Below are positions 4,315 through 22,875 of a stretch of 24,067 nucleotides of DNA, one piece after another. The position numbers were made by a program, and so were the translations under genes. Source of the DNA: Monosiga brevicollis MX1 (taxonomy: Eukaryota; Opisthokonta; Choanoflagellata; Craspedida; Salpingoecidae); NCBI RefSeq assembly GCF_000002865.3, contig NW_001865064.1, positions 30,540 to 54,606 on the forward strand. The letters are read 5' to 3'. Position 1 is the first letter of the stretch, and every line of letters starts with the position of its first letter. The notes under the pieces are model-generated. The model was given only the letters and a program-made list of their open reading frames with translations. It ran no database searches and had not been told where the DNA came from.

Positions 4315-5045
4315 GGCAAAGGTATCGCTCGACCACCATATGCTTCAAAACCGCTTTTGGGGTCCACGACCAATCTCATGCAACCCCTCCAAATAGAACT
4401 CGTCCGACAACCCAAAACGGCAGCCGGGCAGCGGGCCTTGCTCTGTCCTCCTGATGCGCCAAACGACGTATCTCTGGCCAACAGGTTTCGGTGACAGTTG
4501 CGAAGACAGGTGCACTTGCTGGATCAAAGCGCACGCGAACGACTGTGAAGCGAGCCACGTGGCCCCACTGGGAAAAAAAAAAGTGGCAGCGGTGCGATGA
4601 ACCAAACGTTCTGGCGTCGCCACAAGTCCCGACCAGGAGAGCCCCGTACCAACCACAAGCGATCAAGCACCACACACAAAGCAGGGCACGTCAAGCAACC
4701 CCCGGATACCGATGCCGACACCGATGCCAACGAGGGGAAGGAGAAGCGTACGAGGTCAAAAGTAGAAGGCAATTGCCAAAAAAAACTTCTGAAGAAGGAA
4801 AATGCAAAGAACACATGTTGTTGTTTTTGTCTATTTTTTGACTTGTCAAGTCCAAACGGTCATACGAGCAGATTCTGAAGCGCCGCAAAACTGGGGCCTG
4901 GATGTGCACGTGGACTGCCTCTTTGCCAGCCGTGGCAGCTGAAAAGCACTCCAAACCCCTTGACAAGCAGGTTGCAAAGCACCACAAAACTGGGGCTTGT
5001 ATGTGACCGGCGAGGCTCAGATCGTCGCATAGCAGCAAGGCTCAT
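4315..5045. other. Upstream region of ankyrin gene B, duplicate of 1135-1990
   Basis: This is the diverged copy of the gene A upstream region. It lacks the long AAG and AC microsatellites but keeps the flanking words (GGTATC at the start, AAACGGCAGCCGGG, GTCAAGCA, GCAAAGAACAC). It ends with the second pair of the 60-bp element. Presumably promoter and 5' UTR of gene B. A plus-strand frame from 4597 is lysine-rich (THKAGHVKQPPDTDADTDA...), but the matching frame in the other copy has a TGA just before the conserved stretch, so I do not call a gene. Confidence 0.5.
4879..5012. repeat. Two copies of the roughly 60-bp element (right pair)
   Basis: Copies start near 4879 and 4976 with cores AAGCGCCGCAAAACTGGGGC and AAAGCACCACAAAACTGGGG. 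They correspond to the pair at 1829-1975. Spacing is about 98 bp here and about 87 bp on the left. Confidence 0.6.
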
Positions 5046-5792: not shown

Positions 5793-8700
5793 CTAACAAG
5801 AGCGAACATCCCGTGATTGAAGCCAACGTAGCAATGCATACGCGTGCTTCAGCTGCAGCTCCGCTGGTAAGATGTCTGAGGGGTCCACTCCTTGCAAACG
5901 AGGGAAAAACATTGCCTCCTCATCAAGAAAAAGACCAAGCTCGGCTTGGAAAGCTTGTTCCCCAAGGTCGTACATGGGCCAAACGTACACAATGACGCGA
6001 CGCAGTGCATCAGGGAGGCGCAACCACAATTCTGATGTGTGGCGCGAGCGTGCTGTTTGAACGCGTCGGGCCAGATCAGGCTCCAGAGCATCAGGAAAGT
6101 TTCTGAGACGCAAACGACCAGGTCGAACTTCCAGCTCCAGGCGGCACAAGACGTTCACCAAGCCCTCAACGTCGCGCAAAAGCCGAGGCATAATGCAGCT
6201 CGCACGGGCCGTTTGCATGGCGCCTTGATCTCCCAGACGCTCTAAGGCCCTCGCCAAGGTTGCATCCGCACTCAGACCGGTCAAGTCGCCGCTATGGCTG
6301 ACCAGGTACTCCAGGAGGTGCTGTGCCGGCGTTAGAGCTTGCCGCAACTCCGACATCATCAATGGCTGCTCTGCATCTTCAGCCAAAGGCACTTGGTTGT
6401 GAGAAACCGCGAAAACGCCCAAGGCACGAAGGAAAGCCACACCGGGCTGGTTGTATTTGAACAACGGTGCAGCTTCGAATTCAATCAAAAATTTATTGCG
6501 AACAAATTTGTGGTAAAAGATTGCATCCAGTGCCCGCCAATCGGCAATCAGTGTCAGCCCATTTCCAAAGCCCGGGGCGCGCATGGCATACGGAAGCCAA
6601 ATGCCATCCAAAGTAGCGGCATTATCAAGCGAAATTAGGCAGCTGGCATCACAGTCGGAGAGGGGTACCTGAGGTGCAAAAGCGCGCCGTGGTTCTTGCG
6701 CCAACAAGACATGGTGCCGCTGGCCCGCAGCCGATAAGAGTTGCTGCAAGCAGTTGTTGTGCTGGGCAATCAGGGCCGCCAGAAGGGCGCGCAGTTGATC
6801 CCCATCAGCATCCTCTGTGGGGAGGAGTCTTGTTGCAGGTGAGCTCAATGAAAGCGCGGGCAATGGCATCAGTTCGCGACACTCAAAGCGGCCGTGAGGG
6901 CTATCTTCGTCGGCCCCGAGCAGGTCATGCGGAGCCGAGGACCGAAGCGTGTTCCAAGCTGTGATGAAGCCTTCAATTGCCGAGTTCTCCACAAGGCCTC
7001 TGTTGATCACATCCGTCAAGCGCATGGCTTGGACTTGATCGGTTTGTAGAAGTTGACTGTCAGCGGCATGCATCATCTGCACACACGCACTCCACAACGG
7101 CCAGAGCTGTGCCGCGTTGAAGAGCATGGGCTGAACCTGCACAACGGCCGGTAGCAAGGGCAAGGCTGATGCAACGCGAGCATCGGATCGAAGGCGGCCT
7201 TCAAGAGCAGGCCAAGTGACTGCAGGGGCCAAGCGGAACGCTTCCTCCAGCTCAGAATCAGGTTCGTGTCGTTCCTGTAGCCACAACGCAAAATGCGACA
7301 CCTCTTGCCGTGACGCATCAGCTGCGGTGCACACGTCGACCCATGCTTGGTGTGCCGTCCGAGGGTCTGCTAGCTGCTGGGTCCAACTCGTCTGCAGGTG
7401 GGTCTCCAAGGCATCTCGCGCAGCCGTAGTGGTTGGAATTCCATGACCTTGCAAATCACGGGGCAGGTCCTGCACCAGTCGATGCAGGACATGGCTCGTC
7501 TCTTCCAGCGTCAACCCCCACAGTGTCGTCAGCTGACGCATGCGGACGCTAAATCGGGTACAGAGCAGGCCGCCAGCATCTGTACGGAGCTCAATTATCT
7601 CAGCCACAACGGCTGCGTTCACTTCTGTGGCCAACAAAAGGCTCACGCTGCACAAGATGTCCAAAATAATAAGCGTGGCAGGTTGTACAGAACGAATTGG
7701 GGCTGGTGTTTGATTTGCAGCTTGGAGAACTGGAGGGTGGTAGCCAGGTGTAGTGTTGGTTGTCTGTCGAGGTGTGTTGTTGGATTGCCCGCCAATTTGC
7801 GAACGGCAATTGGGACAAGTGGACACCTGGTTGAGCTGGCCACAATTACCCACGGCATAAACAAACCCACACGGGCAGTTGTACACACGTGTCACAGCGG
7901 CCACAGAGCCCAAAATGGCACTGACATCGTCGTCGGCCTGGCCTGGCAAGAAGCTGCGGTTGCACACTTCGGCCCCATAGATCATGGCGGCCAGATAATT
8001 ATCCTGTGCCATAGTCTCTGGGAATACAATGCTAAAGTGCAAAAGCAACCGATGGAGGTATCGGCCAGCATGCCCTGAGCCGGGCACGTCTGTTTGGGTA
8101 TTCGGAGGCATTGTTGTTGTCCAAGCACGCTGCAGTCGCGTCGTCCAGTCAACGTTGGCCGCTGCAGCAAACTGCCGAGGCATCGGGCCCAGCTGTGCAG
8201 GGGGTGCATCAAGTAGACTGCGAAAAGCTCCAGCTGTAACGTCGTTCTGGCGTGTTGTGAGCTCGCGAGCAACTTCGGCTTGCATGGCCGACTCACGCAA
8301 GGAAGGCGGTGCATCAGCGCCGCTAGTTGGCTGATTGGCAGTGGCATTGCTCCTATTGGCTGTCCCGACAGCCCCTGAAGCTGCAAACTGTTGCTCAGCC
8401 CAAGCAGCGCGTGCCACATCAGATGACAAGGGGCCAAAGACATTGCACTGATCGTCTTGTGCACCTTGCTGCTCAGGCCAGGGTAGCTGGGCGATCCACG
8501 GGAGCGTTTCACGCCATCGGTCTGCATGCTCACGCAAGAGACCAAACTCGGCTTTTAAGCGAAGGTGCTTGAATATCAAAACTTGAGCCACTTGCGGTGC
8601 GTTTGCAAAGCAGTCCCAGATCCATCGCGCAGAGTCTGAAAGCCGATCCAGATCCCAGTTTGCCAGCAAAGTGGCATCTACAGCTTGATGAATGAGAGCA

Positions 8701-11700
8701 CGAAGCACCGCAACGCAGATCATGTTGCGCGCGTTGACGGTCGGAATGTGCCTGTCCGTAGAAACGACGTGTAAAGCCCGCTCAGCAAATGCATACAGAC
8801 CATCCAGACCGTTCAAGTGCGTCTGAACGGCCTCAATCAGCAAAATTGCGGCAGGATGACCCAAAGAGCGGTCCCGAAGACCTCGTGTTGCGTTACAGAG
8901 TAGGCTGCTGTGCAAGGTGCCTGGTGATTCAATGATCCCCACACATTGAGTGGCCAGATCGTCGCCATTGGCGTGGCAAAAGTCCACGACACGCTGCAAA
9001 ATGCGCGCAATGGCAGGCCAGACAGGATCTTGGGCGTTCACCAGATGCTCGTGAGTCGCCTCCGCCTGTGTCTCTACACGATGCAGTTGGTCATGGGTTG
9101 TGGTCCGTCGACAAAAGGGGCAATTGTTGTGTCCTGATTGATTGAACCATTCATCGACGCACTCTTCACACATTTGGTGTCCGCAAGGCAGACGCATGTC
9201 GGGCACCGAGTCCATGCAAATGTCACAGCTCACTTGTTCTGGAAGAGCATCCAAACACTCTGCCACATGGCGCACCACAATCTCCAGAACTGATTCATCA
9301 GCGGAGGGTGTGAACAAGCTCGCCTGCAGCACAAAGTCACTAAAGACAGCCATGGCTTCGGCCACTGCACGCAGCTCACGAACGCGGCCGTCACGCAAGC
9401 ACTGATCAAAAAGCACCCGCAAATGCGCAAACAGGTCATCGCCTGGAGCCATCGCAGAGTCATCTGCAATGCGCACCGTCGTTTGTATGTCCTTGACGGG
9501 CAGCCCTCCTTCAAGCATGTGACCTAGCATGGCATACATGAGGCGGAGGCGAGCAACGTCACGAGATTCTTCAAGGAGCAACTGCCAAGGCATCTCTCCA
9601 ATTGGCGTGCTTGGGCTGAGATTAAATGGTACGACACGTAGGGCCTCAGACAGCTCCTCGATCGTGCGGCGATCTCTTGCGCCAAGGATTCGCTCTCGCC
9701 AGGCATGGCGTAAAGTCGTGGTCACTTGAGGAACAATATCGTCCCCATAAATTCCGGTCATGAGGAATTGGTGTGCTTCAACCTCACCAATCACAGATCG
9801 AAGCGCCTGCACTAAGACTAACAAGCTTCGCACATCCCTTTCCATCTGCATCCAGCGTCGTAATGCCACCGAGGGCGAATACTGAAACTGCTGTGGCAGC
9901 GAACGTGCAAAAATTGCACAGATGCGCAGCTCGACGTCCTTTTGGGCCCATCCCAGCAGCCGCGCCGCATCCAGAAGCAAGGCAACCATGATGTCAGGGT
10001 TCTCCTCAAACGAAATGAGGTCATCAAGGTATGCCAAGGCCTGAGAAGCCGGCCCCGCTGCCGATCCCTCATCACTCGACGTATCCATGGCACTATCACT
10101 CAAATTGTCCACCTCATGCGAGAGGGCACTGCACGCCATCGCTACACCAGGCAGCCAAGCCTGCATACTGCTTAGACCAGGAAGAAGTCGCACAGGTGGC
10201 AGCTCGTGGAGGCCGAGAGGGCGTGGGATGCCTTGCATGCGCTCACAAGCGACTCGAGCGTCGCGCTCTACAGCCAAGTTGAGCGCACGATGCCGCATGC
10301 GAATATCGTAGCGTCCAGACGGATCTATTTGCTCATAGCAATCGGCCGGCTCGATCAAGGCTTGCAAAGTGCCCTGCGCAAGCATTTCGTGCACGATGCG
10401 AGCGCTTGCCGCTTGCAAGGCGCGAACACAGGCTTCCTCCACTGTTTTGCAAAATGGCAGGCCTTCTTGCCGACAATCCACGTCCCGCGCTACGAGTTGC
10501 ACCCAATCTTCTGGCCCCATGGAGGCAAGATACGTGGCACCGATCTTAGTGACAAACAACCATAGTTGTCTCACATCATCACGCTCGCGCAATGCCAGGA
10601 GCAAGCGGGTGGTAAGCTCTTGAATGGTTGCCACTGGGCCATTGGCTGTGCGCGCCAAGCAGTGCCACATGCCCGCAGGCTGCTGAAGCCAGGATTGCAC
10701 GTCTGGAACAAAGGTGTGCACAAGCTCCTCAAACCGAATTTGCCTTAGTGTCACGCGATTCAGCTTTGGCATGTCAAGCGCGTCAACAAACTGCATCGGC
10801 ACATTGGCCGGCAGGTGGCAAGAAGCAGCACTCGCGGAATTTGATCGAGGTACAAACACAATGAGCACAAGCTGTTTTTCAGCCGTGTTGAGTTGCTGGC
10901 GCCGTTGCTGGGCCAATTGCACGATGATATCCAAAGTACTCAACTGTGCCACGTGAAGCCGCAGACAGCACAGCTCGCTGTCACCACGCACAAAGTCATC
11001 CAGACGGGTCTGCAACTCCCGCTCGCTCTGAAACGTCCGTATGTCATGTACCACATGGCGCGCGGTAAGTGGCAATTGCGCAAAGGGTGAATCATACGTC
11101 AGTAGCACACTGATAGGTCCAGCATGCGGAAGCCAGCTTTGCAGGGACTCGACGGGCCGTTGCAGTACTTCCTGCAGAATAAGGCGCGCCAGAGGCATAG
11201 TTGAAGCCTCCGGCGAAGCATTGAGGCCAAGGTACGCCTCTACCGAGAGAATGCCACTCAAAGCACGCGCCACACAGTGTTGAACGAGGCCGTACGGGAC
11301 TTGGGCACAACCTTGACCATGATCACCAGGCATGGACAGCGCAGGCAACACCGCGTGAGCAAGCAATGTGTTGTTGACCGCTACGAAGGCATCCGATTCC
11401 GACAGGCCTGCAGCCCTGGCCAGCATTTTCATGTCTGCTTGAATGTGATCCCACCATTGACGGTGCTGACCGGTGGCCAAAAGCCCAGGAAAGTCAATCA
11501 GCTGCTTCTCAAAGCGGTTTAAAAAAGGGGGATCGTACGTCTGCACTTTGTTTTGATCCATGATAACAACGCACTTGAACTCGGCGTGGACCGGGCACAG
11601 CGGATTTGAATGCTGACCAAAAGCAATGCGGCAGTTTCTCTTCCCCTGAATGGTCACGTACGCTTGATTCAGACAGTCGTACAAAGCGCCATACAAAAAC

Positions 11701-14700
11701 TCAAGGTGGCGCAGGATCAGGACCCCTCCAGCCTCCATAAAGTGGATAATCTGGTTCAGCTTGCCATAGACATACTCCTGTTGGAGGCGATCATCGGGAA
11801 ACGCGCTGCCAACCAGCTCCAATCGGGGCACTTGTTCGACGGGTGGCAGCAATTGATCAAGGGCCACCATCGCCGCATACCCATCCGTGCCCAGCAACAT
11901 GTGACGTGCTTGATAATCTTTCAGATTATTTTCGAGCAACTCAAGAGCCGTCGGAACCAAGAGTGCTCTTGAACCTCGCGTCCGAGGAGCAATGTGGGTC
12001 CAAAACAACTCACAGACGCTAGTCAAATCAGTGCTACGTCCACCAAAGTTGCGGGCAGCTGCAGAGATCACAATGCGACCCAAGCCTTTTTGCAGTGGTT
12101 GTCGCGCCTCTCTCAAAAGCTTGGCACCCTTGCCAATCGCTTTGCACAGCGCATAAAAGTCGCGGAGGCCATAAAAACTGTCATTGCTGGGTTGTAAGAC
12201 AAGTTCGTTGTAGGCGTGCACAACCTTCGTGACCAAGTCTTGAATCTCTTTGCAATCTTGCTCCTCTAAAAACGTGGCCAAAATGGTTTGAGCTGTGTTC
12301 TCAAGTTCCTTCAGGGTGGGAGGCGGGCGCTGAAGAACCACGGCCCTATTCATCTTGGCCGTGTCCAAGCCCCAGTTGGAGACGCCGATCACGGCCAGTG
12401 GCTCGAGTTGCTCAGCGGACGGCTCTAGCAGTTTATGCAAAATCTTGAGCGGGTTGAAGCGTGAATGCTCGGCCAGACCAATCTCGTCCATCAGAACAAC
12501 GGGAAAGGTTTGCTGATACCGTGGCTTGGCCGCATAATCGCGAGCTTGGCGAAACACCTTCTCAATGCCCTCGGAGGTCGAGTCCTCCGATCCTTGGTAG
12601 GGAAAAAGCTGAACGCCCGCATAGGTTTGAAGCAGAGGATCTCGCGAGTCGAGGTTACGAAGGCTACAGTTCACAATGGTGGTTGCCACGGTTTTCGAGT
12701 TGCCAGGCGCCCCAATCAGGATGATCGGCGTGCGAGTGAGGACGCACACTGTTAGCGAGAACACGTTTTGGAGCAGTGCCCGATTCATGGCCAAGTTGGG
12801 ATACGCTGATGTATCCATGCGGCCATAAAGGTTGCGTTCCTCGGCATTGACAACTTGACGCCAGGACTTGATGTCAAAGTTGCTGGGGAGCAGAGATCCT
12901 TGAACGCAGCGAAGAAACGTTTCGCGGGCCATCTGACGTTCTTCAGTGACGGGCATGCGCACAATGTACGCAAGCTGAATGGACAGCACCACGCTGAGGG
13001 CCTCTCTCTGACCATGCAATGCGTGCAGGCGATTTGATGCACTGACGTTGCGTGAAAAGTGATACCAGTAACTATCAGCATGAGAAGAGGGAGGGTCCAG
13101 GCTATCGCGGCGTGCGATATAGTCTTGGAAAAACTTGTAAAACACCAAAAACCGACGAACATCTCGCAAGCTGACGACAAATTCTTCGCTGCGGCCATCC
13201 TGGCGCAAAAATGTATGAAGGCGAGACAGGCCATGGGCCAAGGAGGCAAGTTGGCCGGGGGCGCGCAGTTGCACGTGTTGCATAAGCATCCGTTCGATGT
13301 AATTGGCCTCATCTGCCTCAGCCAAGGCACCAAAATCCCAGACATAGGTCAGCATGGCTTCGGGTAGCGGGTGCACGCGGTAGCGCAACTGCGAACGCTC
13401 GTCAAAGGTCTGAACGACTCGGCCCTGTCGCTTGTTCTCCACGGCCAGCCCTGCACGACGCACTGGTGGTGCGCGACGCTCATACGGGTTACATGCCCCC
13501 ATGACGATCAAATTCTCAGGCAGCGGATCCGTGTACAACTTGCGGCGCACGAGAATATCAGTCAAGAGACCGAGGTACTCGCAGGTATTGACCTCGTCGT
13601 AGAACGCCCATACCTGTTGATCGGGTACCCCGCGTGCTGTTTCGATGACTTGATGTGTAAACGCAACAATGTCCTGGCGTGTGGTTCCAGCATGATGGGG
13701 TAGCTGACGGAAAATGTGCCCGGCTATGCGGCAAAGTTCTTGCAAAAGGCTTGTTTTACCAATGCCAGCCTGTCCCATCAAGATGATGGGCTGAAGCGCA
13801 TCGGCACGCAGGACAATCATCGCCATCTTGAGCATATTGTCGGCTGTCAAGGAGTAGTTGCCAACAGGAGGACGATGTGCATCGTTATGGGAGGTCAGGG
13901 CACGCAATCTTTCAATCATTTGTTCCGGAGACGAACTGGCCAGGGATTTTGGCGGTTCGAGCTGGCTTTGTAAAAGTTGCCGAATTTCAGCATCTAAATC
14001 CGAGGGATCCTTGTACAAGATTGAAATGCAGCCGTCAACCTGCATGAGAACGAGGATGTGCGTCGCATCGTCCCACCGCACAAACTCTGAGAATGACGCA
14101 AGCATGGCATCAACGAGATTGCCCTCGTGATGTTGCTGGCGCTCACGTGCTGCGAGGGTGGAGCGAGCAGCAAATGTGCGCACCGTCTCCAGGAGGTGTC
14201 GCAAAAGCCGTGTGCGAAAGCCGCGAGGCACGGACATGTCACGTAGCACGTCGGGTTTTAGAAAAATAGATTTGTCAAAGCGAACAAGTTGCTGATGGAG
14301 GATGCTGATGAAGACGTCCAGTTCTGCGTAGCCTGCCGCGGGCTGATGTTCAAGAAAGTGTCGTTGAAGAAGTTGGCGACAGACTTCCTCTTCCAGCGCT
14401 TCACTGGTGTGTTCATCGGTCAGAGGTGCCTCTACATTGTTAGCATCCAGTTGATACAGGTAGCGACACACAATTTGCACGGGCGTATTCGGATCGCTTG
14501 GAACGCGCAGGTCGTTGACCGTACTTTCAATCAACTCCCACTGCAAGGCACGCAAGAGAGGCATGCACTGCTCGAGGTGGTTGCCAACTGTGTTGGCCAG
14601 CTCAATGTAAAAGCGGGTCCCTGGTCTCAGGGATACCAGCTTGCACCAGCTTGGTGTGGCTTGGAGCAAGAGGAGGTGCAACAGCAACTTCTGCACGGCC

Positions 14701-17700
14701 ACGGCACGCTCAGCCACCAGAGGGCCGATATCAACGTGCACGACCAAGGGTGGCTGGTCAGGGTGGCAAGGATGACGTGTGACAATTTGTTCCAACGCGG
14801 CTTGCACAGCCAGAAGGTCAGGATCGTCTTGGATGGATAGCAGCGCAAAACTCTGTTCCTCAGGGACCTGCTGCTCAATCCACCGACTCTTGCCTTGGCG
14901 CGGCGCTTGCGACATCACTACAGTCGAACTGACGCAGCGTGCAGGAAAGCATGCGCGCACCAAGGCAGCAAGATTTTCTCGGCTGCCATCCGGCAGCTGG
15001 TGTTGCACGGCTGGAATAGACATGCTCACGTGGTCAACTGCCTGGCCGCCTGGACCACGCAATGCAATGATATAAAAATAGCCCCGACGTTGAGTCTGCA
15101 ATTTCACCAGTGCCGTCTGAACCTCATCGTGCAGGTAGTCTGGGCGATAAACAACAAATGGGGTGCTATCGCCTGCAGCTGCCGTTCCCCAGCCCAGCTG
15201 TAAAAAGCGGTGGATTTGTAAGGCCGTGGTGGAGGAGTCACAGATCAAGACATGTGCGCTCGACGGTCGCGCTCCCGCAAGGGCAAAGGGCAGATGAAGG
15301 GCACATAAGCAACTAAGGTCATTCTGGCAAGCCAGTACCTGTGGTCGCGTCCCATCATGGGTTGGCAATTCGAGCGCACCCGGCGGCTGATAACGCTGTG
15401 GTTCCGGATTCGGACCCAGGGTGGCCTCGGTGAGTTGCAGCAGGGCGCGTAGAGCTTCGCACAAATTATCAAGCAGTAGGCCAGAGCGTTGGGTGTTCTT
15501 GTTTGGTGAGGACTGAGCCCAATTCTGGGCAATGCGGAGCACATCATCTTCGTTTGGCAACACATCATAACTCAGGTAGGCCACGAGGGGCCACAAGTTG
15601 TCCAACGAGTTGGTCTCACGGACGCTTTGAAAACAGTCATATACGTAAACCAATTGTGGTCCGGGGAAACGAGCCAGCTCGGGTGATTCAGTGCATCTCT
15701 GATCAATGATTGCGGTCCATCCTTCCAATTCGCACTCTAGCTCGGTGCTTAAGGCTTTGAGCGGTTCTTGCTGAAAATCAGTCGTAAAAGCCTCGTCAAG
15801 ATAGGCACCCATGTAGCCGCACGTCGCATATTCCTTGGCTATAGCTTTCAGACGATCAGCTTCCGCGCATGCGGCACGAAACTCGGTCATGGCTCGGGCT
15901 AGATCTGCTTCGGCCGAGCCGTACAGTTGTGACCGCGCACGGAGATCCTGCAAGCGATCCCAATTCAGTTGCTGGGCATCACCAGCAGGCGCGTTGTCGC
16001 TGACTGTCTCGACTGTGATGGCATGTGAGTGTGTGGTCGAATTCCAGCGCACAGAGAGTTTGGGCTGGTTTTGCATCAAATGCTGGATGCGGAGCTTGGC
16101 TGATCCTGATCGATCCGTCACGTTTTCCCAGAGGTTGCGAAGGGATCGCGCGCTAGTGCAGCATGAATGAACCAGTACTGCTAGATCTCTGCCACCCGGT
16201 ACTCCAGCCTGCTGCTGTTGGCGGTCATTGAGCTGATCGAACTGTTGCACTAGATGGGCTAGCCAGCCTTGGACATTGGTGCCTTGGCTGCGCAGAGTGG
16301 GAGCAATAATGTGATGCAGCGTGACAAAGTCATTGACGGCTGCCTCAGAGGCGGCATACTGGTCTGCGGAAACGCTCTCGGCGCCCATGATGAGACCACG
16401 CACATCCTCATCGAGGGAGATCCGGAGCAGGTCAAAAAGCTCGCCGCCATGAGCAAGCTCACGGACCACCGCCCAGATGTTGACCGACAAGCGATTCGTT
16501 TGTGCGTCGAGCAGGGCGAAGCAGTCGCTCAAAACTTGCAATTCGGTGTCGAGATTTGACAACAGCTCGAGGACGTTGGCACTAATGTCTAGCAATTGGC
16601 CTGAAGCGCGAATCCCAAAGGGCTGCAGCAGTTCTGCCAAGCGCGACAGGAGGCGACTACGGTCTTGTATCTCAACTGCTCTCCAGAGCAATTGGACCAG
16701 TTCGACTGGCTGCCCTCGGTATCTGCCAAGATCAAGGCGCGAAAACCACATCTCGGTCTCCTTGCGGCGCTGCTCGATGGGTGCGCGCGCCAGGCATTGA
16801 AACACCCATGCAATTGTCACGAGATTGGCCTCGGGCTGTAAAATGGCACGAAGATCTTCATCCAGTGTCTGCTGAACAGGCTCCAATAAGCCTGCATAAG
16901 AGACGTCCAGTGGATCAGCCAAAGAGCGCTGGGCCCTTTCACGCTCCAGTACCACGCTGTGAATCAAAGCTCCCACATTAGATAAAGCCCCAGCAGCCTC
17001 AGCCCCCTCGATCGCATCCTCATCTTGACCATCATTGATAAGAGCACCATCTTCATCCCCATCACCGTCTCCGTCACCTAGGCTAAAAGCATCTTCATCG
17101 TCCGTGTCGCCGTGGTCTTCAAGAACAAAGGCGTCTTCGTCCTCGTCGCTGTTGTTGATCAGAAGACCATTGCTCACATTCAAGGAGCGAGCGCGTAGCT
17201 CGCGACAAACCACGTGCTGTAGTACTTGCGAATCAAGAGGTGCTGCACGATAGGCAAGAAACGCACGTAGATCCTCAGGAAGCAACCAATCGGCACGCGG
17301 TAAGCTCTCGGCGTCGGCTTCAAACTGACTAAGCTGTACTTGAAGCGCCTCGACATGGCGGGCGGTTGCCTCGGCCTCGGCTATGCGCGCAGACTGCAAC
17401 AGATAGTCGAGGGCTGATCGGACGACCTCCATCTTTTCTTGGTAGGCAGTGACGGCTTGGCGCAGGTCCAAAGTCGGATCAAGGACGGCGCAGTCCGTGT
17501 CTGCCCAACGGTACAGTTGTTGAAGTTGCTGGTCGCTGCAGGACTCGCACAGCTGACGTGCAAACGCCAGCGTGGCCGAGCCATTGTGCACAGCGCGCAC
17601 AGTATCGTTCCATGCGTGCACGACCGCTGCGACGCGTGGCTCGCTACGAATTGCGGCTGCGAGATGGTTTTTCGGAGCTTCGGCGTCTGAAGCGTGCAGA

Positions 17701-19472
17701 GCTGCCATGATTTGATTCCAAAATGATCGTTGATACGCCAGGTTAGCCAAGAGAAGACCCAGGGCATCATGCTCCGGCGGCCCTTGCATAGCCGCCTCCA
17801 CGCGCAACGCGCTAGCGTAAAGCTGAAGGCTCAGCGCCTGCAGGTCAGGCAGAGCCAAACCTAAGAGCCCCTGCAAAAGCTGAGCATCTGGCTCCAGCTG
17901 AGCAGATTGTCTCTGGGCACCCTGCTGCAAAACTTTTGCGTGCAGTACAAGCATTGAAGGTGGGGCATCGATCGTGAAGCACTTGTCATGAATGGTATGG
18001 TGCAGCAGTACTGGCAGTGAAAACATTTGAACCAGGCGTTCCACCAGCTGATCACCAACGTCTGTTTCGGTAATAGGGCCAGGCTCGGCAGCATAGCGTT
18101 GCAGAATGACCGCGTATTCTGGTGGAGACTGATTGCGGAAACCGCTGGAGAGCAAGAGGTCCAAGTGCCTTGCAGATGACACAGCGCCCAGCTCGCTTGG
18201 TCGCACGTGACGCAAAACTGCGAGATGGCACCTCCACGTGTCCCAAGAGTCAGCTGTCACGGTAGAATCAAGCTGAAACGCGGAATTGCAGCGCAAGGTA
18301 TGCTCAAGAAGTGACTGGGTGTCCTGAGGATGCTCACGCCACCACACCACTTGCTGTTGTGCAAACTGATCCGAAAGAAATTGCTGAACAAGGGAGGACA
18401 AGCCAGGCTCTATCGGTCGGCTGAGCAAAGCACGGATGTTGGGCGGGGTCAGCTTTGTGAGCCCAGTTTGAAACGCGGCAAGGAGTCGGTCGCGCGACTT
18501 TGTGCCAGCAGCATGCCACGCCATTTGTTCCTCAAGTGTTTCATACAATAGAATCAAAGTGGTACTGCTGACAGAAGGACAACGCAAAATTTCAGACACG
18601 AGCGTGGCGGCGTGGTCTTGTAGCAGCACTTGGTCGTCTCGACAGGCTGTAATGAGCACTCGGGCGTCTTCATCGGTGACAATCGGGACTGAAGCTGGCG
18701 GTTTGCGCCCAACTGAGTTCACCTCAGGAACGCCCAGGCTTGCACGCAAGAGAAACTGGAAGACAGGATCCACCCGCCTGAGCGACCCTTTAACCAGCTC
18801 GCTGAGCACCTTTTCCATGCGATCCGCCACTGCTGGCTCTAGTTGAGAAGCGATTCGCTGCACGAACGGTGGCGCCTCGCGATAGGCGCGCTGCAGAAAG
18901 TATTTGTCTACACCATCCAAATAGATCTTGCCTGCAGCCAAAAACGCATGGAAGAGAGGCAGAAGTGCCACACGCTGAGGGAGATTGTCTTCAGCTTGTC
19001 GAACAAGTGCAAGCATGCATTCGCAACGTTCACGGGTATTGTAGAAGGCATAGGCAAAGGCGTCGACAAACTCGGCTTGCTCCCTCAAAGCAGTTGTGGG
19101 GGCTGGTTTGGCGTCGATGTGCCACTCTTCAAGGGACCGCTGTTGAAGCTTCAAGAAGGCAATCTTGTTCTGGAATGAGACAGACGAATGGCTTGACACA
19201 AACACAGAGACGTGTCGATCGCTCAGCGGTCGAACGGCTTGCCGAGTTACCACCCGATCCGTGGTCAAGTTCTCGAGCAGTTCTGCATGGCTTGGCTCGG
19301 AATCCGCACTTTTTTTGCTTGAGAAGAAGCGCTTAAACGAGGAAAATATCTGGCCTGCGGTGCTCTTGGGCTTGCAAAGGTGAATCTCAAGATTTAGCTT
19401 TTGCCAACTCGTGAGGAAGCTAGATGCCAGTTCCATCGTCACACAAGCACACAGTACGCCTGACACAGCCGT
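5793..19472 (-). CDS. Giant RNF213/mysterin-type E3 ubiquitin ligase, exon 3 (AAA+ core, RING, RZ finger)
   Basis: An open frame of 4,559 codons ends at TAG 5793. RNF213 proteins are giant E3 ligases built on a dynein-like AAA+ ring. In order (T1 at 19472): helical N-terminal region; acidic stretch 776-825; degenerate P-loop QAPRQGKS (K1528); first full AAA+ module, Walker A GQAGIGKT (K1906), Walker B FYDE (D1959, E1960), sensor N1995; second module, GAPGNSKT (K2260), MDEIGLAE (D2329, E2330), SNW sensor (N2366); FLNRFEK motif at about 2650; C3HC4 RING 3416-3454; RZ-type finger 3866-3889. The family-typical signatures are DEIGLAE, SNWGLDTAKMNR and GNCGQ...CPNC. Human RNF213 is 5,207 aa. If translated alone, it would start at ATG 19436 (A at -3, G at +4); upstream exons make the longer model likelier. 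The absence of introns over 13.7 kb contrasts with its intron-rich neighbours. Confidence 0.9.
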   Translation of the reverse strand, partial: TAVSGVLCACVTMELASSFLTSWQKLNLEIHLCKPKSTAGQIFSSFKRFFSSKKSADSEPSHAELLENLTTDRVVTRQAVRPLSDRHVSVFVSSHSSVSFQNKIAFLKLQQRSLEEWHIDAKPAPTTALREQAEFVDAFAYAFYNTRERCECMLALVRQAEDNLPQRVALLPLFHAFLAAGKIYLDGVDKYFLQRAYREAPPFVQRIASQLEPAVADRMEKVLSELVKGSLRRVDPVFQFLLRASLGVPEVNSVGRKPPASVPIVTDEDARVLITACRDDQVLLQDHAATLVSEILRCPSVSSTTLILLYETLEEQMAWHAAGTKSRDRLLAAFQTGLTKLTPPNIRALLSRPIEPGLSSLVQQFLSDQFAQQQVVWWREHPQDTQSLLEHTLRCNSAFQLDSTVTADSWDTWRCHLAVLRHVRPSELGAVSSARHLDLLLSSGFRNQSPPEYAVILQRYAAEPGPITETDVGDQLVERLVQMFSLPVLLHHTIHDKCFTIDAPPSMLVLHAKVLQQGAQRQSAQLEPDAQLLQGLLGLALPDLQALSLQLYASALRVEAAMQGPPEHDALGLLLANLAYQRSFWNQIMAALHASDAEAPKNHLAAAIRSEPRVAAVVHAWNDTVRAVHNGSATLAFARQLCESCSDQQLQQLYRWADTDCAVLDPTLDLRQAVTAYQEKMEVVRSALDYLLQSARIAEAEATARHVEALQVQLSQFEADAESLPRADWLLPEDLRAFLAYRAAPLDSQVLQHVVCRELRARSLNVSNGLLINNSDEDEDAFVLEDHGDTDDEDAFSLGDGDGDGDEDGALINDGQDEDAIEGAEAAGALSNVGALIHSVVLERERAQRSLADPLDVSYAGLLEPVQQTLDEDLRAILQPEANLVTIAWVFQCLARAPIEQRRKETEMWFSRLDLGRYRGQPVELVQLLWRAVEIQDRSRLLSRLAELLQPFGIRASGQLLDISANVLELLSNLDTELQVLSDCFALLDAQTNRLSVNIWAVVRELAHGGELFDLLRISLDEDVRGLIMGAESVSADQYAASEAAVNDFVTLHHIIAPTLRSQGTNVQGWLAHLVQQFDQLNDRQQQQAGVPGGRDLAVLVHSCCTSARSLRNLWENVTDRSGSAKLRIQHLMQNQPKLSVRWNSTTHSHAITVETVSDNAPAGDAQQLNWDRLQDLRARSQLYGSAEADLARAMTEFRAACAEADRLKAIAKEYATCGYMGAYLDEAFTTDFQQEPLKALSTELECELEGWTAIIDQRCTESPELARFPGPQLVYVYDCFQSVRETNSLDNLWPLVAYLSYDVLPNEDDVLRIAQNWAQSSPNKNTQRSGLLLDNLCEALRALLQLTEATLGPNPEPQRYQPPGALELPTHDGTRPQVLACQNDLSCLCALHLPFALAGARPSSAHVLICDSSTTALQIHRFLQLGWGTAAAGDSTPFVVYRPDYLHDEVQTALVKLQTQRRGYFYIIALRGPGGQAVDHVSMSIPAVQHQLPDGSRENLAALVRACFPARCVSSTVVMSQAPRQGKSRWIEQQVPEEQSFALLSIQDDPDLLAVQAALEQIVTRHPCHPDQPPLVVHVDIGPLVAERAVAVQKLLLHLLLLQATPSWCKLVSLRPGTRFYIELANTVGNHLEQCMPLLRALQWELIESTVNDLRVPSDPNTPVQIVCRYLYQLDANNVEAPLTDEHTSEALEEEVCRQLLQRHFLEHQPAAGYAELDVFISILHQQLVRFDKSIFLKPDVLRDMSVPRGFRTRLLRHLLETVRTFAARSTLAARERQQHHEGNLVDAMLASFSEFVRWDDATHILVLMQVDGCISILYKDPSDLDAEIRQLLQSQLEPPKSLASSSPEQMIERLRALTSHNDAHRPPVGNYSLTADNMLKMAMIVLRADALQPIILMGQAGIGKTSLLQELCRIAGHIFRQLPHHAGTTRQDIVAFTHQVIETARGVPDQQVWAFYDEVNTCEYLGLLTDILVRRKLYTDPLPENLIVMGACNPYERRAPPVRRAGLAVENKRQGRVVQTFDERSQLRYRVHPLPEAMLTYVWDFGALAEADEANYIERMLMQHVQLRAPGQLASLAHGLSRLHTFLRQDGRSEEFVVSLRDVRRFLVFYKFFQDYIARRDSLDPPSSHADSYWYHFSRNVSASNRLHALHGQREALSVVLSIQLAYIVRMPVTEERQMARETFLRCVQGSLLPSNFDIKSWRQVVNAEERNLYGRMDTSAYPNLAMNRALLQNVFSLTVCVLTRTPIILIGAPGNSKTVATTIVNCSLRNLDSRDPLLQTYAGVQLFPYQGSEDSTSEGIEKVFRQARDYAAKPRYQQTFPVVLMDEIGLAEHSRFNPLKILHKLLEPSAEQLEPLAVIGVSNWGLDTAKMNRAVVLQRPPPTLKELENTAQTILATFLEEQDCKEIQDLVTKVVHAYNELVLQPSNDSFYGLRDFYALCKAIGKGAKLLREARQPLQKGLGRIVISAAARNFGGRSTDLTSVCELFWTHIAPRTRGSRALLVPTALELLENNLKDYQARHMLLGTDGYAAMVALDQLLPPVEQVPRLELVGSAFPDDRLQQEYVYGKLNQIIHFMEAGGVLILRHLEFLYGALYDCLNQAYVTIQGKRNCRIAFGQHSNPLCPVHAEFKCVVIMDQNKVQTYDPPFLNRFEKQLIDFPGLLATGQHRQWWDHIQADMKMLARAAGLSESDAFVAVNNTLLAHAVLPALSMPGDHGQGCAQVPYGLVQHCVARALSGILSVEAYLGLNASPEASTMPLARLILQEVLQRPVESLQSWLPHAGPISVLLTYDSPFAQLPLTARHVVHDIRTFQSERELQTRLDDFVRGDSELCCLRLHVAQLSTLDIIVQLAQQRRQQLNTAEKQLVLIVFVPRSNSASAASCHLPANVPMQFVDALDMPKLNRVTLRQIRFEELVHTFVPDVQSWLQQPAGMWHCLARTANGPVATIQELTTRLLLALRERDDVRQLWLFVTKIGATYLASMGPEDWVQLVARDVDCRQEGLPFCKTVEEACVRALQAASARIVHEMLAQGTLQALIEPADCYEQIDPSGRYDIRMRHRALNLAVERDARVACERMQGIPRPLGLHELPPVRLLPGLSSMQAWLPGVAMACSALSHEVDNLSDSAMDTSSDEGSAAGPASQALAYLDDLISFEENPDIMVALLLDAARLLGWAQKDVELRICAIFARSLPQQFQYSPSVALRRWMQMERDVRSLLVLVQALRSVIGEVEAHQFLMTGIYGDDIVPQVTTTLRHAWRERILGARDRRTIEELSEALRVVPFNLSPSTPIGEMPWQLLLEESRDVARLRLMYAMLGHMLEGGLPVKDIQTTVRIADDSAMAPGDDLFAHLRVLFDQCLRDGRVRELRAVAEAMAVFSDFVLQASLFTPSADESVLEIVVRHVAECLDALPEQVSCDICMDSVPDMRLPCGHQMCEECVDEWFNQSGHNNCPFCRRTTTHDQLHRVETQAEATHEHLVNAQDPVWPAIARILQRVVDFCHANGDDLATQCVGIIESPGTLHSSLLCNATRGLRDRSLGHPAAILLIEAVQTHLNGLDGLYAFAERALHVVSTDRHIPTVNARNMICVAVLRALIHQAVDATLLANWDLDRLSDSARWIWDCFANAPQVAQVLIFKHLRLKAEFGLLREHADRWRETLPWIAQLPWPEQQGAQDDQCNVFGPLSSDVARAAWAEQQFAASGAVGTANRSNATANQPTSGADAPPSLRESAMQAEVARELTTRQNDVTAGAFRSLLDAPPAQLGPMPRQFAAAANVDWTTRLQRAWTTTMPPNTQTDVPGSGHAGRYLHRLLLHFSIVFPETMAQDNYLAAMIYGAEVCNRSFLPGQADDDVSAILGSVAAVTRVYNCPCGFVYAVGNCGQLNQVSTCPNCRSQIGGQSNNTPRQTTNTTPGYHPPVLQAANQTPAPIRSVQPATLIILDILCSVSLLLATEVNAAVVAEIIELRTDAGGLLCTRFSVRMRQLTTLWGLTLEETSHVLHRLVQDLPRDLQGHGIPTTTAARDALETHLQTSWTQQLADPRTAHQAWVDVCTAADASRQEVSHFALWLQERHEPDSELEEAFRLAPAVTWPALEGRLRSDARVASALPLLPAVVQVQPMLFNAAQLWPLWSACVQMMHAADSQLLQTDQVQAMRLTDVINRGLVENSAIEGFITAWNTLRSSAPHDLLGADEDSPHGRFECRELMPLPALSLSSPATRLLPTEDADGDQLRALLAALIAQHNNCLQQLLSAAGQRHHVLLAQEPRRAFAPQVPLSDCDASCLISLDNAATLDGIWLPYAMRAPGFGNGLTLIADWRALDAIFYHKFVRNKFLIEFEAAPLFKYNQPGVAFLRALGVFAVSHNQVPLAEDAEQPLMMSELRQALTPAQHLLEYLVSHSGDLTGLSADATLARALERLGDQGAMQTARASCIMPRLLRDVEGLVNVLCRLELEVRPGRLRLRNFPDALEPDLARRVQTARSRHTSELWLRLPDALRRVIVYVWPMYDLGEQAFQAELGLFLDEEAMFFPRLQGVDPSDILPAELQLKHAYALLRWLQSRDVRSC
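7806..7877 (-). other. RZ-type zinc finger with substituted ligand
   Basis: Encodes C3866-P-C3868-G-F3870, then VGNCG (C3877) and C3886-P-N-C3889, followed by QIGG a few residues on. In RNF213-type RZ fingers the pattern is C-x3-H-x15-C-x2-C, with a GECG-like turn. Spacing here matches exactly, but the histidine position is F3870 and an extra cysteine sits two residues earlier (C3868). The loop cysteine C3877 aligns with human C4516, which I recall as the proposed ubiquitin-accepting residue. F3870 aligns with human H4509, which I recall as needed for lipid A ubiquitylation. Confidence 0.75.
9111..9227 (-). other. C3HC4 RING finger of the giant E3
   Basis: C3416-x2-C3419-x10-C3430-x-H3432-x2-C3435-x2-C3438-x12-C3451-x2-C3454, read as CDIC...LPCGHQMCEECVDEW...CPFC. 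All eight zinc ligands are present, with the usual hydrophobic residue after C1 and a Trp in the E2-binding region. RING position relative to the AAA+ core and the RZ finger matches the order in RNF213. Confidence 0.93.
11490..12720 (-). other. Second catalytic AAA+ module and following FLNRFEK segment
   Basis: Walker A is GAPGNSKT (K2260), with Ser in place of the usual Gly before Lys, a substitution also typical of RNF213. Walker B is LMDEIGLAE (D2329/E2330). The sensor block SNWGLDTAKMNRAVV (N2366, R2376) is nearly a family signature. Further on, PPFLNRFEKQ (N2652, R2653) corresponds to the IPLINRLEK-type motif seen later in the RNF213 core. All key residues are intact, so ATP binding and hydrolysis are expected. 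Confidence 0.88.
13400..13830 (-). other. First catalytic AAA+ module
   Basis: Walker A IILMGQAGIGKTSLLQEL (G1900 to T1907), Walker B VWAFYDEVNT (D1959, E1960) and sensor-1 MGACNPYERR (N1995). In RNF213 two of six AAA units keep working ATP sites; this and the next module are the only two in the protein with full Walker A and B motifs, so they correspond to those units. Confidence 0.88.
14850..14920 (-). other. Degenerate P-loop, probable third AAA-like unit
   Basis: VVMSQAPRQGKSRWIEQQ keeps the GK[ST] end of a Walker A (K1528), but the first glycine is Gln/Ala and no clear Walker B follows. It lies about 380 residues before the first full AAA+ module, as expected for an inactive AAA unit of an RNF213 ring. 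Whether it binds nucleotide is unknown. Confidence 0.5.
16998..17150 (-). other. Acidic low-complexity linker in the giant E3
   Basis: About 50 residues rich in Asp/Glu/Gly (SDEDEDAF, DTDDEDAF, GDGDGDGDEDG, DGQDEDA). The repeated DEDAF/DEDA words point to slippage of GAT/GAC codons. It separates the N-terminal helical region from the rest and is probably disordered. Confidence 0.8.
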
Positions 19473-19584
19473 CTGATGGGCAGATACAACGGGAGTGAGA
19501 AGTTAGATAAAGGATAAATGAACAGGACCGTAACGCGCAAGCACACGACAGAGTTGATGTGGCTGCTTCAACCAGATAACACAC
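19473..19584 (-). other. Predicted intron 2 of the giant gene (112 nt, phase 0)
   Basis: Donor GTGTGT immediately after CAACCG; branch-point-like TATCTAAC with the branch A near 19503; pyrimidine-rich tract; acceptor CATCAG at 19473. It contains the in-frame TAA that stops backward extension of exon 3, so exon 3 cannot be extended without splicing. Not confirmed by transcripts. Confidence 0.6.
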
Positions 19585-19698
19585 CGGTTGAAACAAAATG
19601 CCATGCTCAACGTCTTTTGCTCCAAGGTCCCTGGCATCACCAGTCAAAACAAAACACCGATCGGCGTCCAGCTGTTGCTCAACTGCCAGATACACGGC
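19585..19698 (-). CDS. Exon 2 of the giant gene: CBM20-like segment
   Basis: 38 codons in phase 0, AVYLAVEQQLDADRCFVLTG followed by DARDLGAKDVEHGILFQP. The pattern hydrophobic-V-T-G-D-x3-LG, then a hydrophobic strand, resembles the first strands of CBM20 starch/glycogen-binding domains (as in STBD1); a W...L strand-like piece follows in exon 3 (SWQKLNLEIHL). The Trp that usually follows LG is missing. As I recall, vertebrate RNF213 has an N-terminal CBM20, which would place this exon in the same gene. No ATG of its own and flanked by good splice sites, so it is unlikely to stand alone. Confidence 0.55.
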
Positions 19699-19798
19699 CT
19701 GCAGGTAGAGAACAAGGTTAGATAATCAACGCAATAAGCAACTCAAAAAAAAAAAAAAAAAAAAAAAGAATGAAGAAGAAAAATTTGAACAGACCTAC
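19699..19798 (-). other. Predicted intron 1 of the giant gene (100 nt, phase 0)
   Basis: Donor GTAGGT directly after GAGATG; a 23-nt T run (19745-19767); branch-point-like TATCTAAC (A near 19718), 19 nt before the acceptor; acceptor ACCTGCAG at 19699. Reading through it gives a run of Phe and Leu and then a stop, which is typical of intron read-through and argues that the PDZ exon does not end there. Confidence 0.65.
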
Positions 19799-20803
19799 CA
19801 TCTCGCAATGCTCAAGGGAAGTCGAAGTCATCGCTGTGGGGAAAGAATTTGTGGCCCGCTGGGCGGCGCGATCTGGGGTTGGACCACCTCGACGCACACG
19901 GAGATGAACGTCACCTTGTTTCGATGATTTTTTGTGATCTTCGATGAGCTTTTTGACATTGTCAAGATTGACAACAGAGCCATTGATAGAAAGAATTTCG
20001 TCTCCGTCCTTCAGCTCGAAGCCTTGCCCTTTGTATTGAATCACTTGGGTTTGTACTTCACTGACAAACGTCGGGCGGTCGCTGTCACGATGAAAGACCT
20101 TGTGGCCGTTGCGAGTATGCAAGGAAGCCAGAAAAATATCAAGTTCTTTGGGCTGTGGAGACTGTGTCGTAGACGCTTCAAAGGATGGGGGTGCAGCAGC
20201 AGTCGCGCCAGGTTGCTGGGTTTGTCCCGAATCCGCGGGGTTGTTGGAGTGAGTGGCTGGCCGATGGGAAACGTGGGCATCAACGTCTACAACTGTGCGT
20301 TGCTGCGGCGAGGCGACGTTGCTCAGATCGGCAGTGTTGCTACTGTCACTACCATCGCCATGTCTGATCTCGTCGGGCCGTCTCGGTTCGTTCGTGTCGG
20401 AGGACGTGGCAGTGGTGGATACCAGCGGGTCCGAGGCCGCAATTGGCGCGGGTGTGGAGGCGGCTGTAACCTGCACGCTTGGCGCGGAGGCGGCCGTGGC
20501 TTCGACCTGCACGCTTGGCGCGGAGGCGGCCGGTAGAGACGGCGTCGGCTCCTCGGCAGTTGCAGCGGTACATGGTCTTTGCGTGGATCCATGACTTTTG
20601 TTGTCGCCCTCGTTGTCGCTGTCGTTCGCATCTGATTCGCAGCTGCTGCTGACGCTGGCCGTTTCCCAAACGGATTGACTGAGATCAGCGTCATTCGGGG
20701 ACGTTTGGCCCGATTCAACATTTGCTGCAGGGGCCGTTCTCAGCCTTGGATCGCCTTGGGCACCACCCCCAGCGGCGCTGCCCTTGGGCGGCTCCTGGTC
20801 CAT
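19799..20803 (-). CDS. Exon 1 of the giant gene: disordered N-terminus plus PDZ domain
   Basis: 335 codons from ATG 20803 (G at -3, G at +4; an in-frame TGA lies 36 nt upstream). Residues 1-215 are Ser/Thr/Pro/Ala/Asp-rich and probably disordered, with a repeated ASAPSVQV (93-112). Residues about 218-306 form a PDZ domain: FVSEV, then FELKDGDEILSINGSVV, a KKLIEDHKK helix and a final DVHLRVRR strand. The usual GLGF carboxylate-binding loop is not recognisable, so ligand binding may be atypical. The frame runs into a T-rich stretch after a GTAGGT donor, so I read it as the first exon of the RNF213-type gene. The alternative is a separate PDZ protein ending at 19718. PDZ domains usually dock proteins onto C-terminal tails or internal motifs. 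Confidence 0.7.
20469..20531. repeat. Direct repeat of 27 nt inside the PDZ exon
   Basis: ACCTGCACGCTTGGCGCGGA followed by GGCGGCC occurs at 20469-20495 and 20505-20531. It encodes the doubled ASAPSVQV in the disordered region, a recent in-frame duplication. Confidence 0.9.
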
Positions 20804-21075: not shown

Positions 21076-21624
21076 TTGAAGTGTGCGTGGTTGTGAGAGA
21101 CAGAGACACGACGTCAGGAGGCAAACAATTCAGAGACATGAGGGTAAGACTCACATAAAAGGTGTAAAGTTAATGGAAAGGGCGTAAGCGATCAGAGAGT
21201 TGGCAGTGAACGAGTCTGTGGTAAGAGGGTTGGTGGGTAAGGGCCAGACACACAAAAGCATTTCGGACTGGGAGAGGGACCGTACACACTGTGAGCACCA
21301 CCAGAGATGAGACGATCTTGCTTTCAACGAGCAATGTTAAACCAAAGGTAAAGCTAGAGAACTTACCTCACGCTGAGTTCTCTCAGAGATAAGGACGCTT
21401 CTCATAAGAACAGCGTCAGCACATGTAAATGTTATCACCAAAAAGAGAAACACAAACTACATGAAGAGTAGCATTATCTAACACTACATCCACCTGTACA
21501 ACAACAATAAGTACCCTATTTTCTTCATTATCTGTAATCTACACAAACTCTACGGTTTGCCACAAAAGCTCTATGATTTTGTTAGTACACATCATCTACC
21601 AATCCATAGCATCTTCATAACCTC

Positions 21625-21659: not shown

Positions 21660-21682
21660 ATGTCAGACATTTGATGCCATGA
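21660..21682 (+). promoter_or_regulatory. Chain of two minimal upstream ORFs overlapping the Kelch start
   Basis: ATG at 21660 encodes MSDI-stop (TGA 21672-21674). Its last A starts the next ATG (21674), encoding MP-stop (TGA 21680-21682), which overlaps the Kelch ATG at 21679 as ATGA. If these ATGs are in the mRNA, Kelch translation would depend on leaky scanning or reinitiation. Transcript start is unknown. Confidence 0.45.
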
Positions 21683-22875
21683 CGACCAACGGCGACGCGA
21701 GCACATCGCGGCGAGCGAGGGGGGCGGGTGTCTTGCCTCGGTGGTGGCGCTGGGGTTCGGGCTGTGGTGGGATGATGCCGGCACTTGTGATTGGCGTCGT
21801 CATTGCGAATTTGGCTACTCTGTCCTGGGCAGAGTTGGGAGAGCCGGTGGTGTATGTGGATGATGTGGGCAACTTGTTTGTGAACGGTTCGGGTGGGGCG
21901 GCTCGGGTGTATGTGAACGGGATCGACTTGGCGGCCCTCGTGGCCGAGCAGGAGGTGCTGGCGGCTAGTCAGGCTAGCCTGCTCGCAGCCCAAACCAGTG
22001 CTTTGGCGACGCAAGCCAGTCTGCTGGCCCAGCTGCAGCACCGTCTTCCAGATTTTGACGCTCGGTTGCTGGCCATTGGTGGGTATACCAACGAGAGCCT
22101 GGACTTGGTCCATGCCTTTAATGGTACGGATTGGTCACCGGACCCCGCGCTGCCAAGCCCACTCCACGGGCACAGTGCCATTGCCTTTCGTGACCAGGTG
22201 TACGTGGTCGGTGGTTACAACACGGTGTATGTCCCCGACGTGTATCGCCGCCTCGACAATTCGTCTTGGATAGCTGCTGCCCCCTTGCATACGGCGCGCG
22301 GCTACTTGGCCACGGTTGTCTTTCACAACGAACTGTACGCTTTGGGTGGTGATGGTGGAAATACCATCTTGTCCAGCGTTGAAATTTACAATGGTACCGC
22401 CTGGCGCTCTGGGCCAGCCCTGCTAGACCCGCGTGCTGACCTAGCGGCTGTCTCGTACCAAGGAGAAATTGTGGTTTTGGGCGGCACGGAAAGTCGGGCT
22501 CCGCCTCAGGTCACCGGCTCGGTCATGGCGTTTAACGGCACTGCCTGGCGTTACATTGCGCCCCTGACGCAACCCCGCCGGGCCATGGTGGCTGCTGTTT
22601 TCATGGACCATATTTATGTGGCGGGCGGCATTGAAGCGGCTGCCTTGGCTTCGGTGGAGATGTTCAACGGCACCGCCTGGTCATTCGGGCTGGCTCTCCC
22701 CACTGCCCGTCACACCATGTCCGGTGCCGTCTTCCAAGACCAACTTTACATTGCTGCAGGGAAAGGCAACGTCGACATGGCAGATGTTCTGGCCCTCGAC
22801 GGTCACAACAAGGCCTGGATCACCGCCCCGCCCCTGCCTGTGGCCTGCCAGGCGCTTGCCCTCGTCGTCATTTAA
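21679..22875 (+). CDS. Membrane-anchored six-bladed Kelch-repeat protein
   Basis: A single exon of 398 codons. Residues 1-31 are basic (RRAR, RWWRW); residues 33-51 (MPALVIGVVIANLATLSWA) form one hydrophobic segment, read as a type II signal anchor or an uncleaved signal peptide. Residues about 84-122 are an Ala/Gln/Leu-rich coiled-coil stalk. From about 125 come six Kelch blades with GG pairs at 134, 178, 223, 268, 316 and a degenerate sixth (AAGKG, 360). Four blades carry FNGT/YNGT before a Trp (N148, N238, N286, N330), and blade two has N194SS; all are N-glycosylation sequons, which fits an extracellular or luminal propeller. Kelch propellers bind proteins or glycans; the ligand is unknown. 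It is divergently transcribed from the giant E3 gene. Confidence 0.88.
   Translation: MTTNGDASTSRRARGAGVLPRWWRWGSGCGGMMPALVIGVVIANLATLSWAELGEPVVYVDDVGNLFVNGSGGAARVYVNGIDLAALVAEQEVLAASQASLLAAQTSALATQASLLAQLQHRLPDFDARLLAIGGYTNESLDLVHAFNGTDWSPDPALPSPLHGHSAIAFRDQVYVVGGYNTVYVPDVYRRLDNSSWIAAAPLHTARGYLATVVFHNELYALGGDGGNTILSSVEIYNGTAWRSGPALLDPRADLAAVSYQGEIVVLGGTESRAPPQVTGSVMAFNGTAWRYIAPLTQPRRAMVAAVFMDHIYVAGGIEAAALASVEMFNGTAWSFGLALPTARHTMSGAVFQDQLYIAAGKGNVDMADVLALDGHNKAWITAPPLPVACQALALVVI

Follow-up and report, generated by a model that had tools for sequence, protein, structure and literature searches.

The window analyzed here is a 24,067-nucleotide stretch of the Monosiga brevicollis genome (39.5 Mb in 57 contigs), at positions 30540 to 54606 of contig C31. 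When 18 of 30 PDZ domains from this genome were compared with solved structures, the chains mbDLG-3 (91 residues, 178.5 bits) and mbDLG (71 residues, 139.4 bits) scored about 2 bits per residue, near the level of a self-match, and among the other chains listed only a long DLG4 chain was comparable (140.8 bits, in two stretches). On its minus strand, an exon with a PDZ-like sequence stands shortly ahead of a very long frame of the RNF213 type. We asked whether the two belong to a single gene, that is, whether this choanoflagellate has an RNF213 with a PDZ domain at its N terminus.

Proposed gene structure and splicing

The original prediction linked three minus-strand exons through two phase-0 GT-AG introns into a single open frame of about 4,932 codons. 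Its coordinates all check out on the sequence: both introns were recovered as given, and the joined frame encodes 4,932 amino acids followed by a stop codon, with no internal stops. The parts of the model, in window coordinates, are as follows.

19799..20803, minus strand: exon 1, with an ATG at 20803, 335 codons and a phase-0 end
19889..20146, minus strand: predicted PDZ domain (PF00595), residues 220 to 305 of exon 1
19699..19798, minus strand: proposed intron 1, 100 nt, GT-AG, phase 0, with a run of 23 T and TATCTAAC ahead of the acceptor
19585..19698, minus strand: exon 2, 38 codons, with coding bias restricted to the proposed frame
19473..19584, minus strand: proposed intron 2, 112 nt, GT-AG, phase 0, with TATCTAAC ahead of the acceptor
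5793..19472, minus strand: exon 3, 4,559 codons and a stop, the RNF213 body in a single open frame

Exon 1 starts with about 215 residues rich in Ser, Ala, Thr, and Pro, and the PDZ region comes after them. As had been predicted, the PDZ-exon frame lacks a natural end: no stop codon occurs before the donor at 19798, and unspliced read-through enters T-rich sequence and stops at 19718. An ATG at 19436 is in frame and lies within exon 3, and the gap from the PDZ exon to this first ATG of exon 3 is only 362 nt. Elsewhere in the window, a Kelch-repeat gene (21679 to 22875, plus strand) is divergent to the PDZ-RNF213 gene, and a 129-residue frame with ankyrin repeats is found at 581 to 970 on the minus strand.

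Reference introns were taken from the same genome, from its matches to the myosin head family (at least 106 matches, with 65 of 138 candidates scored). Gaps between abutting myosin exons were picked by eye, 47 in all, and the introns were solved by frame and residue count; 46 gaps yielded an intron (median of 2 candidates per gap, residue count exact in 40 of the 46), and the one gap without a candidate was dropped. The resulting introns span 78 to 200 nt (median, 115 nt), with 29 of 46 in phase 0, and introns 1 and 2 fit them in length, phase, and splice-site strength. Under splice matrices trained without the window sequence, the intron 1 donor scored 7.7 bits, a value that 70% of real donors do not exceed and that 0.7% of the 721 GT dinucleotides of exon 3 reach, and its acceptor scored 9.8 bits, at least as high as 98% of real acceptors and reached by none of the 764 exon 3 AG dinucleotides. 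For intron 2, the donor scored 8.4 bits (at least as high as 74% of real donors; reached by 0.3% of the same GTs) and the acceptor 6.8 bits (at least as high as 72% of real acceptors; reached by 2.9% of the same AGs).

These homology-defined introns are the test on which we rely, and they replaced two ab initio sets. A first, self-trained splice model gave no support, since 21% and 54% of decoys scored no worse than the two predicted introns; we judged this model faulty and rejected it as having learned false introns, because the introns it selected showed no pyrimidine tract and were GC-rich at the acceptor. A second run with generic splice matrices gave a mixed list, in which two candidate introns, themselves unproven, have T-runs like that of intron 1.

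We then listed the valid ways of passing from the exon 1 frame to the exon 3 frame, allowing introns of 50 to 300 nt in two-intron parses and of 50 to 450 nt in one-intron parses, with very weak sites excluded from the two-intron list. The three-exon model ranks first of 1,371 parses (1,343 with two introns and 28 with one) at 46.9 bits, ahead of the next at 38.8 bits and of the best one-intron parse at 8.5 bits. None of 400 dinucleotide-preserving shuffles of positions 19810 to 19441 reached 46.9 bits (median, 24.9; maximum, 39.5). Coding bias, calculated from a codon table built on 39 long open reading frames at other loci of the genome and on the outer parts of the window, is 0.174 bits per codon in exon 2, compared with 0.111 in exon 1 and 0.143 in exon 3, and is negative in all three sense frames of both introns.

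The branch context that the two introns were predicted to have in common stood only in part. TATCTAAC occurs once in each intron and is overrepresented, with 3 copies in the window against 0.14 expected and none of 100 shuffles containing 3 (the third copy is on the opposite strand, at 21475), but CTAAC, the core of the proposed motif, was found in 0 of the 46 myosin introns; CTNAC was found in 21 of them. Intron 1 is also atypical in composition, with 58% T, 29% GC, and its run of 23 T; mean values for the myosin introns are 29% T and 54% GC, and runs of 10 T do not occur in them.

Taken as a prediction from sequence, the PDZ exon, exon 2, and the RNF213 exon are likely to form one spliced gene, and this is likely to be its main form. 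It could be argued that the PDZ exon is confined to an alternative isoform and that the main RNF213 mRNA comes from a downstream promoter, a reading for which the ATG at 19436, in frame with exon 3, would provide a start. A transcript starting there would, however, drop exon 2, which is itself coding, and we consider this arrangement quite unlikely. Two tandem genes, one for a PDZ protein that ends at 19718 with an added Phe-rich tail and one for an RNF213 translated from the ATG at 19436, would agree with the stop met by the PDZ frame, with the in-frame ATG, and with the atypically T-rich intron 1. Yet the interval between them holds splice sites that score strongly and an exon of 38 codons that is coding, and so short a gap would have to hold both a gene end and a promoter, which makes such a pair very improbable. 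No AATAAA or ATTAAA was found in the 362-nt gap; this absence is not decisive, since the stretch from the RNF213 stop codon to position 4,800 has none either.

The N-terminal region: predicted PDZ domain and exon 2

The N-terminal PDZ of the original prediction found in silico support of a borderline kind. Trimmed by eye, the domain matches PF00595 at 24.0 bits (E, 5.2e-5; cut-off, 23.2), and within the whole exon the match is weaker, at 20.8 bits and under the cut-off. Three further PDZ families match the same place, each below its own cut-off, as does, weakly, one Pfam family that is not a PDZ family. The closest solved structure is the PDZ of MAGI-1 (E, 0.023, over an alignment of about 90 residues). 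Like such scaffold-protein PDZ domains, the region shows the PDZ pattern, including LKDGDEILSING, and has VHLRVRR as its C-terminal strand; it differs from them in its low score, in its fusion to an AAA+ E3 ligase, and in the GLGF-type carboxylate loop, where an atypical TRNGH is aligned with the TGFGF of MAGI-1. The domain was absent among the 150 matches listed in a PDZ search of the genome (150 of 197 candidates scored), and a genome search with the PDZ region itself returned only one other match, of 24 residues, 46% of them identical (E, 0.079). AlphaFold, run on the PDZ region alone as a single sequence, gave a mean pLDDT of 39.6, too low for use as a model.

Given these scores, we considered whether the region is a chance resemblance in a fast-evolving N terminus rather than a PDZ domain. 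The borderline PF00595 score, the single short match elsewhere in the genome, the atypical loop, and the non-PDZ family among the weak Pfam matches would all be in keeping with chance. Against it, the PF00595 score of the trimmed domain is over the cut-off, matches to another three PDZ families coincide with it even if below their cut-offs, and the MAGI-1 alignment spans about 90 residues. We consider chance a poor candidate, and the region very likely adopts a true PDZ fold. Whether the predicted PDZ could bind peptides is a more even matter, and we lean slightly against it.

The assignment of exon 2 as CBM20-like fared less well, as Pfam, whole-genome, and home-made profile searches gave it no significant support. 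A Pfam scan of the segment found no match up to an E value of 10, CBM20 (PF00686) had no match in the whole genome, and the N terminus from exon 2 on (569 amino acids, including a short piece of exon 1) had no match to solved structures up to an E value of 10. A profile of four fungal CBM20 sequences scored the segment at 1.9 bits, a value equaled or exceeded by 5 of its 500 shuffled versions, and residues ~4,411 to 4,590 of the protein outscored the segment with the same profile (of 162 windows, 112 gave any score). Alignment of the segment to the CBM20 profile with hhalign gave a probability of 0.8% (E, 0.067). With no Pfam match, a profile score matched by shuffles, and this hhalign result, a CBM20 identity for exon 2 is not established. 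About 20 residues can nonetheless be placed in register with the CBM20 of glucoamylase, and the position fits, since the CBM20 of human RNF213 is given as residues 378 to 515 in PMC11549300 and the segment here spans residues ~336 to 450; what sets the two apart is that no significant sequence similarity to the human domain is seen here. A CBM20 fold might extend across exon 2 and the beginning of exon 3, which we judge somewhat less likely than not.

The RNF213 body and its second copy

The identification of exon 3 as RNF213-type held up well: a phmmer search against RNF213 structures gave an E value of 4.8e-99, with the best stretch at residues 1862 to 2720 of the exon 3 frame, and the AAA core, RING, and RZ finger were all recovered. 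The features of the body, with the two regions that diverge from a second copy described below, are as follows.

11307..13883, minus strand: AAA+ core, matched to RNF213
13775 and 13601, minus strand: Walker A (GQAGIGKT) and Walker B (YDEVN) of one AAA module
12713 and 12491, minus strand: Walker A (GAPGNSKT) and Walker B (MDEIGLAE) of a second AAA module
9099..9236, minus strand: RING finger, C3HC4 pattern (zf-RING_2, 32.4 bits; cut-off, 27.3)
8580..9239, minus strand: RING divergence island, covering the RING and ~175 amino acids after it
7773..7892, minus strand: RZ zinc finger (PF20173, 51.4 bits; cut-off, 27)
6180..6539, minus strand: second divergence island, from the comparison with the second copy

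From their order, we take the two Walker sets to be those of AAA3 and AAA4. In an alignment of the RZ finger to the mouse chain, the human catalytic residue C4516 has a retained Cys as its counterpart, while Phe and Asn occupy the positions of H4509 and H4537. The roles of these three residues are those reported in PMC11549300. Since both His are replaced, zinc binding and transfer chemistry may differ, and full activity is uncertain. The predicted protein thus resembles animal RNF213 (PDB 6TAX and 8S24) in its AAA+ core with two Walker sets, its RING, its RZ finger, and a similar length, and differs from it in the N-terminal PDZ exon, the RZ finger without two His, the lack of a recognizable CBM20, a body contained in one 13.7-kb exon, and the presence of a second, mosaic copy.

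That second RNF213 frame lies about 195 kb away on the opposite strand, in inverted orientation (C31, 246761 to 258734), and a run of 14,217 N (C31, 232544 to 246760) falls exactly at its expected N terminus. Homology between the copies extends from window position 17758, where the N run begins, to about the stop codon, beyond which only simple repeats are found. Across the core (3,630 codons, island edges included), the two copies have a dS of 0.047, a dN of 0.013, and 97.2% protein identity. Within the RING island (219 codons, 9215 to 8560), by contrast, dS is 1.20, dN is 0.39, and identity is 49%, and the second island (81 codons, 6500 to 6260) is similar, with a dS of 1.10, a dN of 0.35, and 59% identity. 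The borders of the islands are sharp, and a short third patch directly after the RZ finger has 88% DNA identity to the second copy. The RING of the second copy reads CIID where the window gene has CDIC; its match, at 31.7 bits, is over the cut-off and begins at position 17 of 44, so the first zinc site may be lost.

The simplest reading of this pattern is an old gene pair that would have been homogenized by recent gene conversion sparing the RING region, by chance or by selection. It is also possible that the islands were imported from another gene; a genome search turned up nothing close to the islands in a third gene, the next matches having E values of 7.6e-4 or weaker. The comparison suggests two proteins with a common motor that differ in a ubiquitin-transfer or partner-binding module. 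In RNF213-knockout mouse fibroblasts, as reported in PMC11549300, removal of the RING made no difference to how two bacteria were ubiquitylated, and RZ mutants failed.

Two more distant RNF213-like genes were found on other contigs, one at 375 to 383 kb of C33 (32 to 36% identity in the AAA region, apparently split by introns) and one at 36.6 to 38.5 kb of C23 (28 to 29% identity in the AAA region). Compared with the fusion protein, the C33 stretch, which the gene runs off, gave only chance-level matches before residue 2244 (best E, 0.80), and neither gene had a PDZ nearby among the matches listed in the genome PDZ search. Separately, a 1,167-residue frame on C10 (169643 to 173146) has an RZ finger that scores above the cut-off; 786 of its residues were scanned, and nothing else in Pfam matched them at an E value of 0.01. 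A frame of 1,166 residues lies ~3 kb upstream of it.

Predicted function and implications

The gene on the minus strand would be transcribed from ~20.8 kb and would yield a 4,932-residue RNF213 protein, with two exons ahead of its single-exon body. By analogy to animal RNF213, we infer that the product would act as an ATP-driven giant that assembles on the surface of a target and then ubiquitylates it, and RNF213-like ubiquitin ligase and ATPase activities are predicted from its domains. Ahead of the stalk, the PDZ may add one more step of recruitment, directed by a peptide or a scaffold. A fuller account, in which gene conversion keeps the choanoflagellate pair near-identical outside private RING and C-terminal cassettes, and in which at least one member has gained a PDZ recruiter at its front, is, taken as a whole, somewhat unlikely.

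Our literature searches, which covered the listings of one paper library, located no precedent for this architecture. Among the matches listed, no title or abstract opening named a PDZ in RNF213; the gene may already be annotated in public gene models. Searches combining RNF213 with choanoflagellates found no paper, and those with orthologue terms or with paralogue, architecture, and fusion terms had no RNF213 among the matches listed. A search for RNF213 with gene conversion returned nothing on such a pair, judged by title, and one for PDZ with RING, E3, and Monosiga found only work on phosphotyrosine domains. In the main text of a paper on M. brevicollis PDZ domains (PMC8512817), a word search found none of the terms RNF213, ubiquitin, and ligase.

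RNF213 is the main susceptibility gene for moyamoya. It coats very different intracellular pathogens, and PMC11549300 presents it as a basic question how such diverse targets are sensed. A docking domain on a pre-animal RNF213, together with a near-identical sister whose RING is different, would set up a natural experiment in which recruitment modules and ubiquitin-transfer modules can be compared against a shared motor. If the fuller account given above is true, these bacteria-eating relatives of animals would possess a modular surveillance ligase, in which the recruitment and ubiquitin-transfer modules vary while the motor stays constant.
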